The notes beneath the pieces are model-generated. The model searched no databases. It was not told the origin of the DNA and saw nothing but the letters and a program-made list of their open reading frames with translations. The position numbers and the translations under genes are program-made. DNA of 64,000 nt from Nitrosococcus halophilus Nc 4 (lineage in GTDB: Bacteria > Pseudomonadota > Gammaproteobacteria > Nitrosococcales > Nitrosococcaceae): contig NC_013960.1 of NCBI RefSeq assembly GCF_000024725.1, positions 3,520,001-3,584,000 on the forward strand. Direction: 5' to 3'. This document shows, one piece after another, positions 2,523 through 29,148 of the stretch. Every line of letters starts with the position of its first letter. The first letter of the stretch is position 1.

Positions 2523-5219
2523 TCAACTCTCCGGTGGAGGGGGAGCCAAGACTTCTCGGCTCCCATTAGACTGCATGGGGCCTACGACACCGCTTTGCTC
2601 CATGGCCTCGACCAGCCGCGCCGCGCGGTTATAACCAATTCGCAATCGCCGCTGAACCCCCGATACAGAGGCCCGCTGAGTCTCAGTAACCACCCGCACC
2701 GCCTGGTCATAAAGGGGATCATTCTCCGCCTCAGCACCACCGGCGGCTAGATTAGCGCCGTCTCCAAATTCATCCATCCCCTGGGTAATTTCTTCCAAAT
2801 ATTGGGGAGCGCCCTGCTGCTTAAGAAACTCTACCACATTATGGACTTCGTGATCGTCCACGAACGCGCCATGTATCCGTTCAGGCATAGCCGTTCCAGG
2901 GGGGAGGTAGAGCATATCCCCCTGCCCCAGAAGTTGCTCGGCGCCCATTTGGTCCAAGATGGTCCTGGAATCCACCCGTGATGAAACCTGAAAGGCCATC
3001 CGGGCCGGAATATTGGCCTTAATAAGTCCCGTGATTACATCCACTGAAGGCCGTTGAGTAGCAAGGATTAAATGAATACCAGAAGCTCGGGCTTTTTGTG
3101 CCAAGCGGGCAATGAGTTCCTCCACTTTCTTACCCACCACCATCATCATGTCCGCAAGCTCATCTATCACGACCACGATTAAGGGTAAGGGTTCCAGCAG
3201 TAATGGCTCTTCCTCTGGAAGTGGTGAATGGAGGGGATCTTTCAGCGGTTGGCCTGCCTTAATGGCATCCCGCACTTTACGGTTAAACCCGGCCAAATTG
3301 CGAACCCCCAATGCAGCCATCAGCCGGTAGCGTCGCTCCATCTCCGCCACACACCAGCGCAAGGCGTGCCCTGCCTCATTCATATCGATGACGACGGGAG
3401 CCAGCAGGTGAGGGATACCCTCATAAACCGACAACTCCAGCATTTTAGGGTCAATGAGGATCAGGCGTACCATCTGGGGAGTGGTCTTATACAACAGGCT
3501 CAAAATCATGGCGTTAATGGCGACCGACTTACCTGACCCGGTGGCTCCCGCTACTAGCAAGTGGGGCATCTTGGCAAGATCGGCGACCACTGGATCACCG
3601 CTGATATCCTTGCCCAAGGCCAAGGTCAGAAAGGCTCGGCTCTCAAGGTAGACGGCACTATGCACCACTTCTGAAAGATGCACAATTTCCCGGGTTTCAT
3701 TAGGAATCTCCAGGCCCACCACCGGCTTACCGGGAATGACTTCGACCACCCGAACGCTCAGCACGGACAAAGCCCGTGCCAAATCCTTCGCCAATCCAGA
3801 GATTCGGCTGACTTTAACCCCAGGGGCCGGTTGCAACTCAAAACGGGTAATGACAGGCCCCGGATTGACCGCCACTACTTGCACCTCAACCCCAAAGTCT
3901 TTGAGCTTTTCCTCCACTTGGCGGGACAAGTTTTCCAGGATTTCCCCTGAATAGCTTCCCTGGGAGGAAGAAGGTTTATCCAAAAGAGAGAGGGGCGGAA
4001 GCCTCCCTTCTTCTGAAGGTTGAAATAAAGGCGGCTGACATTTCTGTGGTTGCTGTAGATTCGTCCCCCTTCGTGGCCCTACCTCCATGGGTGGAGCCAC
4101 TACCCTCGGTAGGGATGTCTCCTGAGGCGGAATGGTCTCCTGAGGTGGAATAGCCTCCTGAGGTGGAATAGCCTCCTGAGGTGGAATAGCCTCCTGAGGT
4201 GGAATAGCCTCCTGAGGTGGAATAGCCTCCTGAGGTGGAATAGCCTCCTGAGGTGGAATAGCCTCCTGAGGTGGAATAGCCTCCTGAGGTGGAATAGCCT
4301 CCTGAGGTGGAATAGCCTCCTGAGGTGGAATAGCCTCCTGAGGTGGAATAGTCTCCTGAGGCGGAATAGTCTCCTGAGGCGGAATGGTCTCCTGAGGTGG
4401 ACTAGCCTCCTGAGGTAGAATTGGCTCTCCAGGTAGGGTGGGTTCCAGTTCGCCAATAACCGGTTCAATACGCACTTTACCTCGTTGCTTCTCAGATTTG
4501 GGCTTGCCCCCCTTTAAGCCACCGGGCATCACCTTCATTTTGGGTATCGGAAGAGAGGGGTTGGCAAACCGCCCACGAAGTGGCTGGCCCCAACCTCCTA
4601 TACTCCGAGATAGGTCTAGGGTATAACGACCAATAAAATCCATCAGCCATAACCAAGAAAGCCCCGTAAGTAAGGTCACACCGGTAAGAAACAAAGCTAA
4701 TAGCAACAGAGTCGTCCCCAGGGGACCAAACATACCCAATAGGCCACGCCCGACCATCTCACCTAGAATGCCTCCCTCGGCTACCGGTAGAGTTCCCGGA
4801 GGCACAGGAAAATGTAGCGCAGCAAGGCCGCAAGCTGCTCCTAAGGCCACGGTAAACCCAACCACCTTAAGCAGCCAGAATTGAATCGAACCCCCGTCCT
4901 GATTTTTCCTGCCACGGACTAACAAAAAATAGCCACTGTAAGCCGCCACGAGGGGCAACAGATAGGCCGGATGGCCCAACAAATAGAGCAGAAGATCAGC
5001 AAGCCAGGCTCCAACCCTCCCTCCTTTGTTATGCACGACCTCAGTAGTGCCTGTATGGGACCACCCGGGATCGGTAGCAGTATAAGTCAATAAAGACAAC
5101 AATAAATAGGTTGCCAACGCCAAGCACACGATGAAGGCGGCTTCTTTAAGGCGATGACGGATATGAAGACTAATCGGGGTACGCTTGGAACGTTTAGTGA
5201 CGGTCGAAGCTTGGGCCAT
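2523..5219 (-). CDS. ftsK: DNA translocase FtsK with repeat-expanded linker
   Basis: Septum-anchored motor that pumps DNA and promotes chromosome dimer resolution at division. The 898-residue protein has several N-terminal membrane segments (about residues 28-195). A proline/glutamine-rich linker follows, then the motor with Walker A GATGSGKS, Walker [16 protein letters not shown] and the downstream [12 protein letters not shown] segment. A C-terminal winged-helix gamma domain ends the protein ([19 protein letters not shown]). The linker contains 17 tandem hexapeptides of the type IPPQEA, encoded by an 18-bp DNA repeat (separate entry). The unit is a multiple of three, so copy changes would stay in frame. 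First gene of the ftsK-lolA-rarA group. Confidence 0.96.
4120..4425 (-). repeat. 18-bp tandem repeat, 17 units, inside ftsK
   Basis: The string tcctgagg recurs exactly every 18 bases from 4120 to 4408, giving 17 consecutive units. Eleven central units (4156 to 4336) read IPPQEA on the minus strand. The flanking units read IPPQET, SPPQET or ILPQEA. The central copies are almost identical at DNA level, which indicates recent expansion. The array keeps other frames open too, but those frames are not genes. Confidence 0.97.
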
Positions 5220-7717: not shown

Positions 7718-8551
7718 ATGTCCTCAGATAACACTTCGGGTGGGGGGTACCAACGCCCCTTCCTGAAGTGGGCGGGGAACAAATATCGCCTTTTAACCCA
7801 GATCATTCAGGTACTTCCCCAAGGAAAGCGTCTCATTGAACCCTTTGCAGGATCGGCGGCGCTTTTTCTCAACACGGAATATGAACGCTATCTGGTGAAT
7901 GATATTAATCCTGACCTCATTGCGCTTTACCAAATCCTACAACAAGAAGGCAAAGATTTTATCCACTATGCGGGCAGCTTTTTCACCCCCCGCCACAATA
8001 CGCCTGAGGCTTACTATAGGTTACGAACCCGCTTCAATACTACCGATGATTCTGCTGAAAAAGCCGCGCTTTTCGTCTACCTAAACCGTCACGGCTACAA
8101 CGGTCTCTGCCGCTACAGCGCTTCCGGTGTGTTTAATGTCCCCTTCGGTCGTTACAAACGGCCTTATTTTCCGCGTAAGGAGATGGTGGCCTTCCACCTC
8201 AAAGCACGGCGGGCTAAATTTACTTGCCTAGATTTCCGAAAAGTCTTTGCGCGGGCTAGACATGGCACCGTCGTCTATGCCGACCCGCCTTATGTTCCCT
8301 TAAGCGGCACCGCCCGCTTCACTCACTATAGCGGTCATTCCTTTGGCCCCGAGGAGCAAGAGGCATTGTCTCAAAACGCGGAACGGCTCGCCAAACGGGG
8401 AATTCCCGTTTTGATTTCCAACCATGACACCCCGTCTACCCGCCAGGCTTACCGCAATGCCAAACTAATAGGCTTTTCGGTAACTCGCTTTATCAGTTGC
8501 AAGGGCGATCAACGGGCCCCGGTGAACGAAGTCCTTGCCCTCTTCACCTAG
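7718..8551 (+). CDS. dam: DNA adenine methylase Dam (GATC type)
   Basis: N6-adenine methyltransferase of the Dam/DpnM family, 277 residues. The AdoMet-binding motif FLKWAGNK is at residues 15-22, with FAGSAALF after it. The catalytic DPPY is at residues 189-192. The middle carries the DNA-contact segment NRHGYNGLCRYSASGVFNVPFG, typical of GATC enzymes. No restriction endonuclease is next to it, so it looks like a solitary housekeeping methylase. mutL (15.7 kb) and mutH (58.7 kb) in the same window support a role in strand discrimination for mismatch repair. Confidence 0.92.
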   Translation: MSSDNTSGGGYQRPFLKWAGNKYRLLTQIIQVLPQGKRLIEPFAGSAALFLNTEYERYLVNDINPDLIALYQILQQEGKDFIHYAGSFFTPRHNTPEAYYRLRTRFNTTDDSAEKAALFVYLNRHGYNGLCRYSASGVFNVPFGRYKRPYFPRKEMVAFHLKARRAKFTCLDFRKVFARARHGTVVYADPPYVPLSGTARFTHYSGHSFGPEEQEALSQNAERLAKRGIPVLISNHDTPSTRQAYRNAKLIGFSVTRFISCKGDQRAPVNEVLALFT

Positions 8552-8559
8552 CCCTTTTC

Positions 8560-8868
8560 TCATCGGAAATGATAATAGGATTGATTAAGGTAGGCGATGA
8601 CCTCCTCCAGGGCTTGCTGGGACCAATTCACCCCCGCCGCCACACTACAACGCTGGACCCGCTTTCTCAGGGCAGCCAGAGACTGAATGTGACGATCCTC
8701 ACGGGTATATATCAAAGAAGGCTGCCCTTTCATCAAAGAAGCATGGCAGGTGATGCATGCCTTATCGTGAAGAATTTTGCCCCGTTCAGTATCCGCTGCC
8801 CAAAGGGAATTAGTCCCTAGACAAAGCATCCAGAGACTCCAAGCGCAAATTACCCTAATTCGCGCCAT
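8560..8868 (-). CDS. small secreted monohaem cytochrome c
   Basis: A 102-residue protein with a signal segment (MARIRVICAWSLWMLCL, probable cleavage after SLWA near residue 24). There is a single haem-binding site CITCH at residues 38-42. The distal ligand is not certain: the only Met shortly after the haem site is in SLMKGQP. The start at 8868 gives a good leader. A longer frame to 8916 only adds residues read through the end of the upstream protease gene. It overlaps that gene by 14 bases, so the two are probably cotranscribed. It is convergent with dam, eight bases apart. Electron-transfer partner unknown. Confidence 0.75.
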   Translation of the reverse strand: MARIRVICAWSLWMLCLGTNSLWAADTERGKILHDKACITCHASLMKGQPSLIYTREDRHIQSLAALRKRVQRCSVAAGVNWSQQALEEVIAYLNQSYYHFR

Positions 8869-10108
8869 GGGCCTGAAGATGCGCCAGCCGCACCGGTGCG
8901 GGGGGATGGGAATCATAAACCGCCGAGTGAATAGGATCGGGGGTTAAGGTACTTGCATTTTCTTTATAGAGCTTTACTAGCGCCTGGACCAAAGCCTGGC
9001 TGTCGGCCATGTTAGCGGCAAACTCATCCGCTTCAAACTCATAACGGCGAGAAATATAGGCTAATAAGGGGTGTAGGAAAAAGGTCAACACAGGCGTCAC
9101 CAACATAAACAGGGCCAAAGCCATATAGTTGGAGGGTTGGCTCCCCCCTAAACCTTGATAAAACGCGGGCTGGGCGCTCAACCAGCCTAACAGGGCCAGC
9201 CCCCCTAAGCCAAGCATAGCCATGACAATGAGATTTTTGAAAATATGGCGACGCTTAAAATGACCGAGTTCATGGGCCAACACGGCCTCGATTTGATCAG
9301 GATCGAGGGATTCCAGCAGGGTATCAAAGAAGACAATACGCTTATTGCTTCCAAGCCCGGTGAAATAGGCATTGCCATGTCCAGAGCGGCGCGAACCGTC
9401 CATCACAAAAATGCCTTGGCTTTTAAAGCCGCAGCGGGATAGCAAATCTTCGACCCGATGCCTAAGATTCTCATCCGCAAGGGGAGTAAAAGTATTAAAA
9501 AGCGGCGCAATAAAAGCAGGATAAGCCCACATCATGAACACGGCAAGGCTTAACCATGCCAACCATAGAGACAACCACCAATAGCTCCCTGCGTGCCCCA
9601 TGAGCCACAGAGCGCCGGCCGCAATAGGAATACCCAGCATGAATATCAGTACTCCTTGCTTGAAGAGATCTTGTAAGAATAAACGCCCGGTGGTCCGATT
9701 AAAGCCAAAACGCTGCTCTAGAACAAAAATCCGATAAATCCTCAACGGCAGCTCAATCACCGCCCCGATAAGTATAAAGCTAAGGAGCACGGCAACGCCG
9801 GTGCCAAGCTCACCCCAACCCCAATCTCGCCAGAAACCATCGAGCCAGGCCAAGCCCCCCCCCAAAGTCCAGAGTAACAACACCAGGACGCCGAAGACCT
9901 CGCTCACAATGCCTAGCCGAAGCTTAGCCACCGTATAGTCAGCTGCTTTCTGGTGCGCAGCCAGGGAAATATGATCCTCAAAAGGCGAAGGAACCTGACC
10001 TCGGTGTAAACGCACGTGACGAAGCTGACGGCGTGCCAACCATAGCTCTAAGCCCAGCATCAAACCAACAAAAACTAAAAATAAGAAACTGTAAGTATTC
10101 ATATTCAT
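8855..10108 (-). CDS. M48-family membrane metalloprotease, Ste24/CaaX type
   Basis: Integral-membrane zinc peptidase of 417 residues. The zinc motif HELGH is at residues 279-283, with the third ligand probably in EADEFA near residue 359. An N-terminal region with an early hydrophobic segment and the string RLGIVSEVF matches the Ste24-like N-terminal domain. At least six hydrophobic segments are visible. In bacteria this family is linked to membrane-protein quality control rather than prenyl processing. Start is ambiguous between 10108 and 10102 (MNMN). It overlaps the cytochrome c gene downstream by 14 bases. Confidence 0.88.
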   Translation of the reverse strand: MNMNTYSFLFLVFVGLMLGLELWLARRQLRHVRLHRGQVPSPFEDHISLAAHQKAADYTVAKLRLGIVSEVFGVLVLLLWTLGGGLAWLDGFWRDWGWGELGTGVAVLLSFILIGAVIELPLRIYRIFVLEQRFGFNRTTGRLFLQDLFKQGVLIFMLGIPIAAGALWLMGHAGSYWWLSLWLAWLSLAVFMMWAYPAFIAPLFNTFTPLADENLRHRVEDLLSRCGFKSQGIFVMDGSRRSGHGNAYFTGLGSNKRIVFFDTLLESLDPDQIEAVLAHELGHFKRRHIFKNLIVMAMLGLGGLALLGWLSAQPAFYQGLGGSQPSNYMALALFMLVTPVLTFFLHPLLAYISRRYEFEADEFAANMADSQALVQALVKLYKENASTLTPDPIHSAVYDSHPPAPVRLAHLQAHGAN

Positions 10109-10198
10109 AGCGATTATCTTAAATTAAAACCTGTGAGGGAGATTAGCTTCTGGTAGAATGCGGTGCAAGTAATTACACAACAATTGGCAACTCATCAT

Positions 10199-10750
10199 AT
10201 GGCTCAGGCCCCCCCCAACTTAATCTGGTTAGATCTAGAAATGAGCGGTCTTGATACGACTCAGGATGTCATTCTCGAGATCGCTACCGTAGTCACGGAT
10301 AGTGACCTCAATATTATCGAGGAAGGCCCGGTGTTCGCCATCCATCAAAACGACGCCATCCTCGACAATATGGACGAATGGAATACTCGACAGCATACTA
10401 AATCCGGTTTAGTTGAACGAGTACGCCACAGCCTTATAGACGAGGCAACAGCGGAACAACGGACCCTGGAATTTCTCGGTCAACACACCCATGCGAATAG
10501 CTCTCCTCTGTGCGGCAACAGCATTTGTCAGGACCGACGTTTTCTCGCCCGTTACATGCCTCAGCTAGAGGCCTACCTTCACTACCGTAACCTGGATGTC
10601 AGTTCCATTAAGGAACTGGCTAAACGTTGGGCACCAGAAGTTGCCAAAGGTTTCAAGAAGGAAAGCGCTCATCTCGCCTTAGCCGATATCCGGGAATCCA
10701 TCGAGGAATTGGCTTACTATCGAGCCCATTTCTTTCGCTTGCCCGGTTAA
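10199..10750 (+). CDS. orn: oligoribonuclease
   Basis: 3'-to-5' exoribonuclease that degrades di- to pentanucleotides, including pGpG from c-di-GMP breakdown. The 183-residue product carries the DEDDh residues in [10 protein letters not shown] (Exo I), [11 protein letters not shown] (Exo II) and [10 protein letters not shown] (Exo III). The frame is open from a GTG at 10163, but the ATG at 10199 gives [14 protein letters not shown], matching the normal family length. It is convergent with queG, three bases apart, and divergent from the M48 protease gene. Confidence 0.96.
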
Positions 10751-15728: not shown

Positions 15729-17543
15729 ATGGTTGCTCCTTCCCTTCCCCGTATTCAACTTCTGCCCCCCGCCCTCGCTAATCAGATTGCCGCCGGCGAG
15801 GTAGTGGAACGCCCCGCTTCAGTGCTCAAGGAACTGGTGGAAAACGCCTTGGATGCCGGGGCGCAACGCATCGAGATCGAAAGTGAGGCAGGGGGAATTG
15901 GGCTCATCCGAGTCCGCGATGACGGTTGCGGTATTCATCCTGAGGATCTGTGCTTGGCCTTAAGTTCTCATGCAACCAGTAAAATCCGCCAGCAAGAACA
16001 ATTACTCAACATCACCACCTTAGGCTTTCGCGGCGAAGCCTTGGCAAGCATTAGTGCGGTTTCCCACCTCAGCCTCAACTCCCGAGTGGTCAATGAGGAA
16101 TACGGCTGGTGTCTTCGAGAAAATACAGCAGTCCAACCCGTGGCTCATCCTGTTGGCACTACCGTTGAAGTCCGTGATCTATTTTACAATACCCCCGCCC
16201 GGCGGCGCTTTCTGCGGGGGGAAAAAACGGAGTTTATGCACCTCCGTGCTACCCTAGAGCGGCTGGCCCTCAGCCACTTCGAGGTCAGCTTCCGGGTGAG
16301 CTATAACCGCCGCCCTCTTTTCACCTTGCCTTCCTGCCTCCGCTCCCCGGACCAGTTAAAACGGATCGCCAAGATCTGCGGGCAGGCTTTTACCGAGCAC
16401 AGTTTATATTTCAAGCGGGAAATAGAGGGACTGCGCCTATGGGGCTGGTTAGGGCATCCAGAATTCTGCCGTAGCCAAACTAACCTCCAGTACTTCTACG
16501 TCAACCAGCGCATGGTTCGAGACCGGCTGTTAACTCACGCGACTCGCCAAGCCTATGGCAACCGCCTTCCTCCAGGACGCCACCCGGCCTATTTACTCTA
16601 TCTGGAGTTGCCCCCTAGCCAAGTGGATGTTAATGCCCACCCCGCCAAAAATGAGGTCCGGTTTCGAGAAGCCCGACAAGTCCATGGTTTTGTTGTTCGC
16701 ACCTTAACCGAGATACTAGAACAAGCTGAGTCAGAAGGGGCACCCAAGCCAACCGCTGATGCCCCCCTTTCAGGGGATGCACCTCACGGATCTCCTTTGG
16801 AGGTCCCCATTTGCTCTCAGCAAACCGGGCAGGCCCTTCAACCAAAGCCCCATGGCACTCCCCACAAAGGACGGCTTTACCCGGTGGCAGAAGCCGCGGA
16901 GCACTATAGCCCCCTCCCCAGGGGAAGTCGTATCCCTTCCCGCAAGGGAAACCACAATGAATCATCATTGCTTGGCCAAGCCCAGGCTTTGGTTCTCGGA
17001 CGCTATCTGCTGGCAGAAAACCACCAAGGTTTAGTGCTCGTCGACCTTCCTGCAGCCCGCGCCCGCCTCGCCCAAGCGCGCCTGCGTGCTGCCTATGCCA
17101 GAGACCATATCACCCGACAACCTTTACTGCTTCCACTCACTTTCAAGGTCTCTCCGCAGCAGGCAGAGTGGACAGAACAACATGCCTCTGAACTATTAAC
17201 ACTCGGTTTCGGGTTACATCGGCTAGGGCCTAGCGTTGTTGTTCTTCGGGAAATACCCGCTTCTCTCCGAGAACTTAACTTAGAGCAGTGGCTGCCTGCC
17301 TTGCTTACCCGATTGACCGAGCAGCAACAAGAAAAGCTGGAAGAAACTCCATTAAAGGAAATCATTGTTAGCTTTACGGGGCGGTATCCAGCACCCACAA
17401 TATCCCCTCCCTCCTTACAAGAAATGAATGTTCTTCTGCGAGAATTGGAAAAGCTTTATCAGAACGAGCCAGACCTTAAAAGCAAGCCTCCCTGGCACGC
17501 ATTACCCAAGAACAAAATCGAAGAGTGGTTTGCTCCGGACTAG
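15729..17543 (+). CDS. mutL: DNA mismatch repair protein MutL (MutH-dependent type)
   Basis: GHKL ATPase that links MutS to the nicking step. 604 residues. ATPase motifs are ELVENALDAGA, RDDGCGI and GFRGEALASI, then NTPARRRFLR and NAHPAKNEVRF. A variable proline-rich linker covers about residues 345-410, and the C-terminal dimerisation domain follows. Where endonuclease-type MutL proteins carry DQHAxxxR(I/L)xxE, this one reads VLVDLPAARARLAQ. So the metal-binding endonuclease motif appears absent, as in E. coli MutL. That fits the presence of mutH and dam in the window. Confidence 0.96.
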   Translation: MVAPSLPRIQLLPPALANQIAAGEVVERPASVLKELVENALDAGAQRIEIESEAGGIGLIRVRDDGCGIHPEDLCLALSSHATSKIRQQEQLLNITTLGFRGEALASISAVSHLSLNSRVVNEEYGWCLRENTAVQPVAHPVGTTVEVRDLFYNTPARRRFLRGEKTEFMHLRATLERLALSHFEVSFRVSYNRRPLFTLPSCLRSPDQLKRIAKICGQAFTEHSLYFKREIEGLRLWGWLGHPEFCRSQTNLQYFYVNQRMVRDRLLTHATRQAYGNRLPPGRHPAYLLYLELPPSQVDVNAHPAKNEVRFREARQVHGFVVRTLTEILEQAESEGAPKPTADAPLSGDAPHGSPLEVPICSQQTGQALQPKPHGTPHKGRLYPVAEAAEHYSPLPRGSRIPSRKGNHNESSLLGQAQALVLGRYLLAENHQGLVLVDLPAARARLAQARLRAAYARDHITRQPLLLPLTFKVSPQQAEWTEQHASELLTLGFGLHRLGPSVVVLREIPASLRELNLEQWLPALLTRLTEQQQEKLEETPLKEIIVSFTGRYPAPTISPPSLQEMNVLLRELEKLYQNEPDLKSKPPWHALPKNKIEEWFAPD

Positions 17544-17590: not shown

Positions 17591-20498
17591 CTAAGCTAGC
17601 TTCCCCTCGGAACATGGAGCTTCGATAATATGTGGGGCCGGCCGACCGATATAGTAACCTTGGGCATAATCCACTCCATATTCGCGGAGTAATATCAAGG
17701 CCTCGGCATCTTCTACAAATTCCGCAATGGCTTTCTTGCCAAGACCTTTGGCAATCTCGCTTAGCGCCTTGACGAAAACCCGATCTTGATGGTTTTCAAC
17801 TAATTGCCGGACGAACATACCATCAATTTTGACATAATCAACCGGCAACTGCTTAAGGTGGAAAAAAGAGGAAAAACCCACCCCAAAATCGTCCAAGGCA
17901 AATTGGCAGCCATGAGCTTTTATTTTATGCATCAGATTCGCCGCGGCCATCATATCGGCCACCGCTGCCGTCTCGGTCACCTCAAACATCAACGAAGAAG
18001 GATCAACACCGGTCGTTCTTAATAAATCTTCTAATATAGGCACCAATTCGGGATCATCTACTACCCGTCCTGAAAGATTAATAGACAGCGTCAACTTATA
18101 CCCTTGGGACCACAATCTAGCTTGCTTGGTAATGGCCTTTTGCAACACCAAATGATCGATAGAATGGATCAAACCTGATTGCTCGGCCACCGGAATAAAC
18201 TGGCCTGGAGAAATAATTCTGCCCCGAGGATCACGCATTCGTAGCAGAACTTCATAATGGCCTATGGTATTGGTACAGATATCCAATACCGGCTGGAAAT
18301 AAAGCAAAAAGCGATCTTCCCGAAGCGCTTGCTCGATCTGCTCTTTCCAATAGACTCGATTCTGCATCCGTTCACGAACTCGCTCATCGCTCGAGAATAA
18401 ATGCCACCCCCCTCTCCCTTCTTCCTTGGCCTGGTACATGGCTAAATCAGCGTTGGCCATGAGATCATGGACGGTAGTACCATGGAGCGGGAAAAGCGCA
18501 ATACCAATACTGGCAGAGATGGAATGATTACGACCTCGAGCGGGAAATTCTAAGGTACCCAACTGGGCACGGACTTTTCTTGCCACTTGGACCGCGCCGT
18601 CAGCGTCACACTCGCGAATCACCACCGCAAATTCGTCTCCCCCTAGACGGGCGATGACATCACTCGCCCGAACGACTTGGCGTAGCTTGTCAGCCACCAT
18701 TCGCAACAGAGCGTCTCCGGCTTGATGACCGCTGGTATCGTTAATATATTTGAATTGGTCGAGATCAAAATACAGCAGGCCGCCACTGTGCTTATAACGC
18801 TTGGAAGCCATGAGAATTTGCTCGAATTCACCTTGGAAACGGCGCCGATTAAATAATTCTGTCAAAGGATCATGATCCGCCAGCCAGGCCAGTTGCTGCT
18901 CTGCCTGCTCCCTTTCAGTCACATCATGCCCCACGCTAAGCACCACGGCATCACGGGGTGAACGGACCAGCAAGCGAGAGTGGAACCAAGAAATAGTACG
19001 CTGGCTGCCATCCCGGCACTGAAGCCCAGCATCTACGCGCACCTGCTCTCGGCGACCCAGCCGTAGCTCTTCTAATTCCTGGAGCACCTCGGGAGAAATT
19101 TTATCGCCCGCCAATAGTTCGTTAAAGGGTCGGCCTTCAATTTCATCGGCACTATAGCCTGTAATCACCAACCCTTGCCGGTTTAACATCACCACCCGCC
19201 CAGCGGCATTCTGGGTCAGAATGATGACCTGAGCCGTATTCAACAACCCGGTGACAAAGTCCCGCTCCCGCGCTAAATCATCCCCCCGCTCAGCTAAATT
19301 GCGGGTCCGCTCTCGTATCTGTGCCTGTAAGGCTTCTAGCTGATAGGATAAGGTGATGGCGGTGTTATTAAGGACATCGATTTCATCTCGACCCCAGAAG
19401 CGTCGAACCGATTGACCAAGGTGCGTCCGGACTTTCTCGAAAGCGTGCTCCGCCAAATAAGGCAGACTTAGGGCAACCCGTTGCAAACGAGCCATGGGTT
19501 TCCACAGCAAGAGCAACAACAGAATCTCGGAAACCAAGAGGCCGATCAAGCCACCGAGCAGGCTCTGCCGAGTCGCGACCCGAATATCAGCAAGGGCACT
19601 GGTCACATCACTAATGACCACTAACTGGGCCTGATTTTCTCCATCCGTTCCATTAATGGGTATCAGACGAACTTCATATTCCCGACCTGAATGGTGGTGC
19701 CACACATGTTGCTCCCCTACCGCGGCAAGGGAATGGTCTTCAGAAACCGAACGTAACACAAGCAAATTGCGCTCTGCATGGGTCAAGGCCGTCACCCGCA
19801 TGTTCCATTCAGGCAACAATCGACTCGGCTCAATCCCTCCCCTCGGATATAATCGGCTAGCCGTAATGATACCGACATCATCGCCGGAGATTTGATGGAA
19901 GGCGAGTACCACATCGGCAAGAGAGCGGCCAAGCAACAAAACACCGGCGCGCTCATTATTGGCAAGCAAAGGAACCGCTACGTACTGGATGCATTTATCC
20001 TTACAATCTAGCCCGGTAACCGGTTGTTCCGTTTTATTGGCTGCATACACCCATTCCAAAACCTGACCCGTGTCGGCCCGCTGCTCCCAAGACACCAATA
20101 ATTCATTTTCAGAAGAATAGAAACTCGCTATCTCGACCCCCCAGACCATTTGCAACAAGTGCCCATGCCGATTGAATATCGACTCAATCTGCCTAATCAA
20201 AGAGCCATCGTCACCATGGCCTCCCCGCAATAGCGGCACGATATCGGCAAGTTGTTCCATGCGCTGGTAAGAGTTTTTAATAAGCCCCTGAATTTTCTCA
20301 ATATGATCCAACCTGAATTTTCTCAATATGATCCAAATAGACTTGCTCACGCTGCAAAGCAAATTGGCGTTGCAACCCTAAATAAGCAAGCCCCGCCAAA
20401 GACGCATTAATCGTGACCAGAACCAGACTAAACACCAAAACAGCCTTCCATTTAAGACTGAGGAAATGGGGGGTGGGGGCTTGTTCAGGATCTGACAT
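17591..20498 (-). pseudogene. frameshifted GGDEF/EAL membrane protein
   Basis: A c-di-GMP turnover protein that would be about 960 residues if one copy of a 25-bp duplication were removed. The N-terminal fragment (ATG at 20498) has one membrane segment (AVLVFSLVLVTINASLAGLAYLG) and shifts frame at 20312-20336. The rest stays open to 17591. It has a periplasmic sensor region, a second membrane segment (GLLVSEILLLLLLW), a coiled linker, a PAS domain, a GGDEF domain with intact RLGGDEFAVVI, and an EAL domain. The EAL motif reads EVLLR, and DDFGVGFSS is conserved. The second frame could start at a TTG (20362) or at internal Met codons, but would lack the first membrane segment. Confidence 0.85.
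20287..20336 (-). repeat. exact 25-bp tandem duplication causing a frameshift
   Basis: The same 25 bases occur twice back to back, at 20287-20311 and 20312-20336. On the minus strand each copy reads LDHIEKIQ in its own frame. Since 25 is not a multiple of three, the second copy shifts the frame. One copy (or four) would restore a continuous GGDEF/EAL gene. Confidence 0.97.
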
Positions 20499-20819
20499 CA
20501 ATACTTTCCGCAGAAAATGCTACCTCCTCAAGCATCCATCGCCTTTTCCGCCAGAGTAAGGTCACCAGAGAGGAGAGGCCCTAAGGGATCACATCGAAGA
20601 CGGATATTTTGCACTAAGCTCTTCAAGATCTCGGACACTTTAGTTTTTCTTTTAACGCTTTATTTTAAATCGGCAAGTTTTTAGAAAAATCTCTTCATTG
20701 GAATCAACGGACTATTGCCTTTGTCGAAGCAAGGGTAGCTTAACCCCCGAATTGACAAGACATTTTAACCCTTTTCACTCCATCCTAAGAGGGAGTACCA
20801 ATAAAATTTCTGATTTTAT
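20499..20819. other. intergenic region between cbbR and the GGDEF/EAL gene
   Basis: About 320 bases without a supported gene. The left part should hold the promoter of the GGDEF/EAL gene. The right end holds a hairpin that may end cbbR transcription (separate entry). Nothing else stands out. Confidence 0.5.
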
Positions 20820-20820
20820 T
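20801..20820 (-). terminator. possible terminator hairpin at the end of cbbR
   Basis: AATAAAAT and ATTTTATT form a perfect 8-bp stem with a short loop, starting at the cbbR stop codon. The stem is all A/T and weak, so termination is uncertain. Confidence 0.35.
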
Positions 20821-21722
20821 TAGGCGTTGCGCACCAACCCCTGGGCCTCTTCAGTGACCAAATCCTTGAAGGCCTGGTGCAGGGCGGTGAAGCGCTTGCT
20901 TTTTCGGTGCATAATGTACCAATGGCGCATAATAGGGAAGGAATCAACGTCTAGGATTACCAACCGCTGTAAAGCAATCTCCTTCTCCAACGTATGTTGA
21001 GAGACGATCCCCAGACCAAGCCCGGCCTGTACTGCCTGTTTGATGGCCTCGTTACTGCTAATTTCCATGCTAGAAGTAATCGTGGCTCCCAGATGGGCAA
21101 AGAAACGTTCCATCGCGATCCGGGTACCCGAGCCACGCTCACGCAGGATAAAAGTCTCTTGCTGCAATACGGTTAAGGGTACCCGCTGCCCTACCAGTGG
21201 ATGTGCCGGCGGGGCAATAACAACCAGTGGATTATCCATGAAGGGCTCCGCTACCACCTCCAAACTCTCTGGAGGTTTTCCCATGATCACCATATCAACT
21301 GTATTTTCTTCCAAATGCCTCAACAAAGCTTCGCGGTTAGTCACATCGAGGCTAATATTGGCCCCAGGAAAACGCTGATGAAACCGACCCAGCAAATGGA
21401 GAGCAAAATAAGTGGCGGTAGTGGCTACAGCAATCGTAAGGGTACCCCGCCGACTTCCCTTTAGCTCCTCCAGAACATCCTCAACCTCACTTAGCTGCCG
21501 GGAAATCTGCTGGCTGTAATGGTAAAGCTCCTGACCTGCCTCGGTAAGGAAAATTTTTTTTCCCAGTTGCTCAAATAGCGCCAAACCCACGTTATCTTCC
21601 AATTGTTTGATCTGCATGGACACCGCCGGCTGACTCAGATGGAGTTCTTCTGCCGCCCGGGTATAGCTAAGGTGACGGGTCACTGCTTCAAACACATAAA
21701 GTTGACGAAGAGTTACATGCAT
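20820..21722 (-). CDS. cbbR: LysR-type regulator CbbR
   Basis: Transcription regulator of Calvin-cycle genes, 300 residues. The N-terminal winged helix-turn-helix reads TLRQLYVFEAVTRHLSYTRAAEELHLSQPAVSMQIKQLE in outline. The C-terminal half is a LysR substrate-binding domain (FMDNPLVVIAPPAHPL, FILRERGSGTR). It is divergent from the form IA RuBisCO operon, the standard cbbR position. The ATG at 21722 is better placed after GAGAG than the one at 21728. Identification as CbbR rests on family features plus position. It is the only such regulator in the window, so it may serve both RuBisCO operons (inference). Confidence 0.9.
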   Translation of the reverse strand: MHVTLRQLYVFEAVTRHLSYTRAAEELHLSQPAVSMQIKQLEDNVGLALFEQLGKKIFLTEAGQELYHYSQQISRQLSEVEDVLEELKGSRRGTLTIAVATTATYFALHLLGRFHQRFPGANISLDVTNREALLRHLEENTVDMVIMGKPPESLEVVAEPFMDNPLVVIAPPAHPLVGQRVPLTVLQQETFILRERGSGTRIAMERFFAHLGATITSSMEISSNEAIKQAVQAGLGLGIVSQHTLEKEIALQRLVILDVDSFPIMRHWYIMHRKSKRFTALHQAFKDLVTEEAQGLVRNA

Positions 21723-21754
21723 GTTCATGCTCTCGAGAAATATTGATAAGCATT

Positions 21755-21962: not shown

Positions 21963-23384
21963 ATGGCGAAAAAAACTTATACCGCGGGCGTTAAAGAGTA
22001 CCGCGAAACTTACTGGATGCCAGAATATACCCCAGCCGATACTGACATCCTGGCCTGTTTTAAGGTGACTCCACAGCCTGGGGTACCCCGTGAAGAAGCT
22101 GCCGCAGCGGTTGCCGCAGAAAGTTCCACCGGAACATGGACCACAGTATGGACCGATCTGCTCACCGATCTCGATTACTATAAAGGACGTGCCTACGCTA
22201 TCGAGGACGTTCCCGGCGATGATGAATCCTTTTATGCCTTTATCGCCTATCCTATCGATCTGTTTGAAGAAGGTTCGGTAGTCAATGTATTTACTTCCCT
22301 GGTCGGTAATGTCTTTGGCTTTAAGGCCCTTCGCGCCCTGCGTCTGGAAGACGTCCGTTTTCCCATCGCCTATGTAAAGACCTGCGGCGGTCCACCCAAT
22401 GGTATCCAAGTCGAGCGGGACAAAATGGACAAATATGGCCGTCCCCTACTGGGTTGTACCATCAAGCCGAAGCTGGGCCTCTCCGCCAAGAACTATGGCC
22501 GTGCCGTATACGAGTGCCTGCGCGGCGGCTTGGACTTCACCAAGGACGACGAAAATGTCAACTCCCAACCCTTCATGCGCTGGCGGCAACGGTTTGAGTT
22601 TGTCATGGAGGCTATTCACAAGGCGGAGGCCGAAACCGGCGAGCGCAAAGGCCATTATTTGAACGTCACCGCACCTACCCCGGAAGAAATGTACAAGCGG
22701 GCCGAATTCGCCAAGGAATTAAAAGCCCCCATCATCATGCACGACTATATCACCGGCGGCTTCTGCGCCAACACGGGCCTGGCCAACTGGTGCCGAGATA
22801 ACGGGATGCTGCTGCACATCCACCGCGCCATGCACGCCGTACTCGATCGCCACCCCAAGCATGGCATCCACTTCCGGGTGTTGGCCAAAATTCTGCGCCT
22901 GTCCGGCGGCGACCACCTGCACTCCGGCACCGTCGTGGGCAAACTCGAAGGTGACCGGGCGGCAACCCTAGGCTGGATTGATATCATGCGGGATAAATTC
23001 ATCAAGGAAGACCGCAGCCGCGGTATCTTCTTCGACCAGGATTGGGGCTCCATGCCTGGCGTCTTCCCGGTCGCTTCCGGCGGTATCCATGTCTGGCACA
23101 TGCCCGCGTTGACCGCCATCTTCGGCGATGACTCGGTACTTCAGTTTGGTGGCGGCACTTTAGGTCACCCCTGGGGCAACGCAGCGGGTGCTGCGGCTAA
23201 CCGCGTCTCTCTGGAAGCCTGCGTCGAGGCCCGCAACCAAGGCCGCCCGATAGAGAAGGAAGGCAAGGAAATCCTAACGACAGCGGCCAAAAACAGCCCC
23301 GAGCTCAAAGTCGCCATGGAAACTTGGAAGGAAATTAAATTCGAGTTTGACACCGTTGACAAACTAGACGTGGCCCACAAATAA
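21963..23384 (+). CDS. cbbL: RuBisCO large subunit, form IA (green type)
   Basis: Fixes CO2 onto ribulose-1,5-bisphosphate; forms L8S8 with CbbS. 473 residues, the normal form IA length. The carbamylated lysine and metal ligands are in DFTKDDEN (Lys194). Loop 6 is GTVVGKLEG, and the C-terminal half has [14 protein letters not shown]. Sequence style ([20 protein letters not shown]) is form IA, distinct from the form IC enzyme at 29.4 kb. The small subunit and cbbQ/cbbO follow. No carboxysome shell gene is present, so it looks like the non-carboxysomal, CbbQO-associated subtype. A GAGG-type ribosome site precedes the ATG. Confidence 0.97.
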
Positions 23385-27581: not shown

Positions 27582-29148
27582 CTTTTCTTTGGGACGGCAA
27601 TAGCCACACCCCCTACCGAATTTGATGGCCAATTTGACCCGACCCTCATTCCCACAGAGCAAATCGCCGAGATTAAATTCACCACCGGCGCTAGTTCCGA
27701 ATTATACGGCGAAGGCCCCATCGGCGCCGTGATTAACATTATCACCCGCAAGGGGGTGACAGGGTTGCGGGCAGTGCTTAGTGCCGAGCGGGAGGACGGC
27801 GATCACCACCGCGTATGGGGCCGCCTCAGTGGGGCCAAACAGGATACGGACTTCTTTATTAGCGTCAGCCATCAAAACCAACAGGGATTCCCGCTTTCCG
27901 ACGACTTTGAACCCACCGCTCTTCAAGGCCAAGGACTGCGGGAAAACAGCGACCGGGAACGCGCTAATCTCTTTGCCAACCTGGGCTATCGCCCGAACCA
28001 AGACTGGCAACTGGGCCTGACCTTCAACCATACCCACGGCGAGCAGGGAGTTCCCCCTATCGTCATTGACGATAACAAAGATCCTTTCGCATCCAGACCC
28101 CGATTTGAACGGGTCGATGACTTGGAAGGCTACTCGGTTCAGCTAGCGGCCACCTTTGACCCTACGGTACCTTGGGCAGCCCGATCCTGGCTTTACTTCA
28201 ATAGCCTGGATCAAGAAGAAAATCGATACGATGATAATCAATATAATACGATTACTGACCGGAACAATTTTCACAAAGAGAATACTAACCGGGTCATGGG
28301 CTTCCATGTCCAGCCCAGTTTTGAGTTTGGTCCCGAAGGCTTATTGTCTGTTGCTTTCGATGGCCGTCGCGAAAGCTTTGATGAAACGGGATTTATCCAG
28401 ACCGCCCGTAATCGCAGCCAACCCCTTGCTCAAGATAATGAAGTCTTCGTCTATTCCGCAGCCTTGGAATACAGCTTCAAGCCCTTACCGAAGCTGGGAT
28501 TAATCTTCAGTTATGGACATCACTGGCAGGCTCGGGAACAGGGCTCCAGCGATAACAGCAACAGCTTCATTACGGGCGCCTATTATGATCTTAGCCCTCA
28601 GACTCGATTCCGGGCCTCAGTATCCCGGAAAGTGCGGGTTCCCTCCATCCGCCAACTCTATGAGAGCATTTCCGGCGATCCCAATCTAAATTTTGAAACG
28701 GCTTACCTCTATGAAATCGGCGCCCGCTACCAGTTTAATTCTGCTAACTCCGTCGATCTCGTCCTTTCCTACACCGATGTGGAAGACTTCATCGAAAAAA
28801 AACCGCTTAACGGATCGCTTCGAAAACAACCAGGAATACCGTTTCCGGGGCATTGAACTGACCGGGGAAACCCGACCTTGGGAACGCCTGCGATTACGGG
28901 TCCGCTATACCCATTTAGACAACGAGGATCGCTCTTCCGGCAGTGAAATTGATGAGCTGCAATACCGGCCAGAAAACAAAGTTTCTTTCGAGGCGTTCAC
29001 CGATTTCGGATATGGCTTCCAAGGATATTTGTCCCTCCTCCATGTGGCCGATCAATTCTTCTATTCTCGCCAGGAACCGGTTCAAAAAGCCCAATTGGAC
29101 AACTTTACTCTGCCTCTCCAAAGCCATAAAACTAGCAGAGAGTCATAG
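27582..29148 (+). pseudogene. decayed TonB-dependent outer-membrane receptor
   Basis: The sequence starts inside the plug domain (FDGQFDPTLIPTEQIAEIK, then GASSELYGEGPIGAVINI). So the signal peptide, TonB box and most of the plug are missing. The beta-barrel part continues to a run of eight A at 28795-28802, where the frame shifts. Seven A would join DFIEK to NRLTDRFENNQEYRF. The barrel resumes to about LDNFTL near 29110, then leaves the family and stops at 29148, so the last strands are missing too. Three independent lesions make function very unlikely. The exact left border is uncertain; the TonB-like reading begins around 27580-27600. Confidence 0.88.

Follow-up and report, generated by a model that had tools for sequence, protein, structure and literature searches.

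Slipped-strand phase variation at simple-sequence contingency loci relies on tracts of many short units, in which a change in the copy number of a unit not divisible by three alters the reading frame. Poussier and colleagues reportedly described, in 2003, a reversible tandem duplication within the regulatory gene phcA of Ralstonia solanacearum, and reversion is said to have been observed. Among the inactivating mutations of cultured bacteria, tandem duplications of 26-116 bp have been found in lrp mutants from prolonged Xenorhabdus cultures, and none of the eight lrp mutants that were followed, from the mutation set that includes these duplications, showed genetic reversion (PMC6786866). Deletion between short repeats is set by repeat length and proximity, RecA not being needed below 200 bp (PMC2991278). 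The literature that we searched yielded nothing useful on phase-variable diguanylate cyclases with tandem repeats, and no useful link between Nitrosococcus and c-di-GMP.

Here we analysed a stretch of 64,000 nucleotides (64 kb; the window) from the genome of the marine ammonia-oxidising bacterium Nitrosococcus halophilus, strain Nc4, which originates from a salt lagoon off Sardinia (Harms/Koops 1990; PMC4830845). A membrane-bound dCache-PAS-GGDEF-EAL gene in this window carries a 25-bp tandem duplication, which we consider likely to be a recent loss-of-function mutation, probably of strain or culture level.

A 25-bp tandem duplication in a GGDEF/EAL gene

The gene occupies positions 17591-20498 on the minus strand and contains in its 5' part an exact direct repeat of the 25-bp unit CCTGAATTTTCTCAATATGATCCAA. 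Repeat search and TRF located both copies on the minus strand: the copy transcribed first, towards the 5' end of the gene, lies at 20312-20336, and the one transcribed second, towards the 3' end, at 20287-20311. They are 100% identical with a spacing of 25, and TRF reports 2.0 copies at 100% over 20287-20336. The period-25 match run measures exactly 25 bases, hence two full copies of the unit, with neither a partial third copy at 20287-20336 nor any microhomology flanking the unit. A chance origin was ruled out, since no perfect tandem with a unit length of at least 12 arose in 30 Markov shuffles of the 64-kb window. No stable hairpin was found at the repeat, whose single strand folds worse than its own shuffles, and hairpin-driven slippage was ruled out on these grounds.

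As the unit length is not divisible by three, the 25 added bases change the frame by +1. In the two-copy allele, the frame that opens at the ATG at 20498 reads through the first copy and reaches the TGA at 20300-20298 after 66 aa, so that frame reading delimits an upstream fragment (20298-20498, minus strand) with TM helix 1. A downstream open frame of 923 aa extends on the same strand from a TTG at 20362 to 17591 and, according to the ORF list, Pfam and motif checks, encodes a dCache_3 sensor, TM helix 2, a PAS domain, a GGDEF domain with I-site and an EAL domain. Pfam places the dCache_3 (double Cache sensor) domain at residues 17-257 of this frame (19592-20314, minus strand; E 1.8e-23), the GGDEF domain at 18413-18880 (minus strand; E 5e-48) and the EAL domain at 17639-18343 (minus strand; E 8e-71). 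The GGDEF domain bears the RxxD-x5-GGDEF motif (RASDVIARLGGDEF) and the EAL domain the motifs EVLLR, NLS, FEVTE, DDFG and KID; the 923-aa frame retains the I-site and all GGDEF and EAL catalytic motifs (RASD-x5-GGDEF, EVLLR, DDFG, KID). With both domains and their catalytic motifs present, the locus at 17591-20498 is predicted to encode a hybrid GGDEF/EAL c-di-GMP protein.

For comparison only, we read the gene with one copy of the unit omitted: whichever copy is left out, the frame runs from the ATG at 20498 to the stop at 17591, giving 960 aa with no internal stops, and the duplication is its sole break. A preliminary description had claimed that two exact, adjacent 25-bp copies break a GGDEF/EAL gene, and that removal of one restores a single frame of about 960 residues; the two perfect copies, the split into a 66-aa ORF and a 923-aa frame, and the restored 960-aa frame bear this out. 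A second copy of the gene was not found elsewhere in the Nc4 genome, which has 14 GGDEF and 11 EAL matches in total; given the 13 and 10 that exist besides the broken gene, the cell may tolerate its loss.

Downstream, the gene converges on mutL (15729-17543, plus strand; ORF list), a neighbour kept in three congeners (neighbourhood comparison), and upstream it is flanked by a cbbR-like LysR-family gene (20820-21728, minus strand; Pfam). This LysR gene and the dCache-PAS-GGDEF-EAL gene (17591-21728) remain paired in G004, a further family member, as well as in all three congeners; around the homologues of Nitrosospira and others, no strong match to cbbR turned up. This conserved pairing may hint at a link between the control of carbon fixation and c-di-GMP. 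The RuBisCO large subunit encoded beside cbbR (21963-23384) shares only about 56% identity with its counterpart next to the cbbR orthologue of N. oceani and N. watsonii, although the cbbR genes themselves are 89-96% identical, and the N. wardiae stretch examined contains no RuBisCO large subunit; the RuBisCO genes beside cbbR seem to have been swapped or lost. Elsewhere in the window, an 18-bp minisatellite of about 17 copies (4119-4421) lies in frame within ftsK (2523-5219, minus strand), by its coordinates in the linker between the 4TM and alpha domains, and is likely to vary in length between strains. A TonB-dependent receptor beta-barrel is split over two overlapping plus-strand frames (27729-28856 and 28693-29148) and appears frameshifted near 28.8 kb; a plug domain was found in neither part.

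Single-copy orthologues and the age of the duplication

In N. wardiae, N. watsonii, N. oceani and G004, each represented by one genome, the orthologous gene has a continuous frame of 960-993 aa and a single copy of the unit, which is diverged in sequence in all four. Outside the 3' end of the gene alignment, which is unreliable, every gap is a multiple of three except the 25-bp insertion of N. halophilus. More widely, the Nc4 protein aligns along nearly its whole length with the orthologous or closely homologous dCache-PAS-GGDEF-EAL membrane proteins of Nitrosococcus, Nitrosospira, Thiodiazotropha and Competibacter, at an amino acid identity of 92% for N. wardiae and about 46-49% for the others. 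Across 56 homologues scanned, a set gathered by similarity and biased towards intact genes, 55 have a continuous frame of at least 850 aa (several are cut by the locus end), whereas the duplication interrupts the frame in Nc4. At the duplication site, none of the 56 has a perfect tandem of 10-99 bp unit length; the single repeat found lies in another part of L047.

The only interrupted homologue of the 56 belongs to Nitrosospira sp. Nsp2 (L022, match 8001-10679), where an early in-frame stop limits the open frame at the match start to only 114 aa. In another locus (L129), a 682-aa frame ends exactly at a 16-bp tandem of 2.1 copies (9526-9559), and the following frame of that genome begins just after it; this tandem may have defined where one gene ends and the other begins.

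The unit itself differs between N. halophilus and N. wardiae at 6 of 25 positions, and all six differences are present in both copies, so that the duplication came after the split of these species. Over the gene, which is 89.6% identical to that of N. wardiae, a value equal to the published genome ANI of 89.5% for the two species (PMC4830845), dN is 0.040 and dS 0.406 (NG86). On codons where the outgroups agree, we counted 3 nonsynonymous and 41 synonymous changes on the N. halophilus branch, against 13 and 46 on that of N. wardiae. Had the whole N. halophilus branch been neutral, about 14-20 stops would be expected under a simple model that takes the branch as half the pairwise dS; none was seen besides the frameshift, and a neutral phase is estimated to account for less than about 15-21% of the branch.

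By these counts, the gene bears the signature of purifying selection, without relaxation. This selection, the lack of extra stops and the retained I-site, GGDEF and EAL motifs together suggest that the gene was working until very recently and that its break is very recent. Intact single-copy orthologues, no further inactivating changes and no relaxed selection characterise the locus as a probable recent pseudogene formed by tandem duplication. We infer that function has been lost, that the loss is recent, and that the cells do carry the mutation, as opposed to an assembly error.

Possible residual products, copy number and assembly

Duplication in tandem of a 25-bp stretch within the 5' part of the dCache-PAS-GGDEF-EAL gene would, through the +1 frame change, halt translation from the ATG at 20498 after 66 aa. 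Were the remainder translated, through a weak internal start or by reinitiating close to the upstream stop, the product would be without TM helix 1, and its sensor domain would then not be placed in the periplasm. Slippage that loses one copy could restore the gene, as it could for any short tandem duplication.

It may be argued that the function is changed rather than lost, the downstream frame being expressed through an internal start or reinitiation as an enzyme that lacks TM helix 1 and has altered c-di-GMP activity. The 923-aa frame with its intact motifs is consistent with such a split, as is a TTG at 20311, which sits 11 nt before the upstream stop, overlaps the stop region and has a GAG about 10 nt upstream. 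However, no candidate internal start of this frame has a good Shine-Dalgarno, none of the relatives has such an arrangement, and without TM helix 1 the large sensor domain would be stranded on the wrong face of the membrane. We therefore regard a functional split as very unlikely, while the long downstream frame may retain some function. Programmed frameshifting was also considered and rejected: the frame could be recovered only by shifting +1 (or -2), the unit contains an A-rich run that would favour -1, and none of the relatives requires frameshifting.

The preliminary description had offered three readings: an on/off switch, a recent mutation of the sequenced strain and an assembly error. 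In an evolved, phase-variable switch, slippage would flip the copy number and tune c-di-GMP output, the gene being on at one or four copies and off at two or three. The perfect tandem has a unit whose copy number does change the frame, and since RecA-independent deletion acts on repeats below 200 bp as a function of their length and proximity (PMC2991278), loss of one 25-bp copy is expected at some low rate. Such low-rate loss is, however, generic to every short tandem duplication, and the other observations do not favour a switch: the unit is single and diverged in all three congeners and in G004, none of the 56 relatives has a repeat at the site, and there are two copies only, with no stable hairpin. 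The flanking microhomology that could regenerate the duplication is absent, so that slippage would tend to remove a copy without a ready way to put it back, and the absence of reversion in the Xenorhabdus lrp mutants points the same way. An evolved switch is thus highly improbable. We give as little credence to the proposal that Nc4 populations mix one- and two-copy cells, with an equilibrium of duplication and loss acting as a low-frequency genetic switch of a c-di-GMP sensor whose gene, in this ammonia oxidiser, neighbours the CbbR/RuBisCO genes. Of the readings offered, a recent mutation of the sequenced strain fits best.

The cells may instead hold one copy and an intact gene, the second copy having been introduced in assembly or finishing. 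This would agree with the absence of any sign of relaxed selection and with the intact genes of all near relatives; the window also contains a second frame-broken gene, the TonB-dependent receptor, which fits either sequence errors or real pseudogenes. Against it, an exact 25-bp insertion would be an unusual type of error, repeat collapse being commoner than expansion, and the chromosome and plasmid are each assembled as one contig. Moreover, an 864-kb sample of the assembly contained other short perfect tandems, and in none of the six that were checked did omission of one copy restore a gene. The same sample dismisses a genome-wide tendency to gene-splitting tandems: none of the six joins a split gene, and the largest frame gain at a covering gene is from 197 to 203 aa. 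An assembly error is accordingly unlikely, though it deserves to be kept in mind, and a recent loss-of-function duplication is the reading that we retain.

The Nc4 duplication among known systems

In counts of c-di-GMP enzymes for Nc4, the locus is best treated as a probable recent break or a possible sequence error; neither two genes nor an evolved switch should be scored there. The locus also offers a clean example of a tandem duplication dated via close relatives.

Like the units of simple-sequence contingency loci, the Nc4 unit alters the frame when its copy number changes. Those loci have tracts of many short units, whereas Nc4 has two copies of a 25-mer absent in all relatives; across four relatives and 56 homologues the repeat is neither kept nor recurrent. 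The phcA gene of Ralstonia solanacearum is similar in that a tandem duplication within a regulatory gene can be lost and the frame restored, although reversion is reported to have been observed there and is possible only in principle in Nc4. In the lrp null mutants of Xenorhabdus nematophila, selection in prolonged culture has been demonstrated (PMC6786866), whereas the Nc4 case is known from one genome sequence; in both, a short head-to-tail duplication appears as the lesion that inactivates a regulatory gene.
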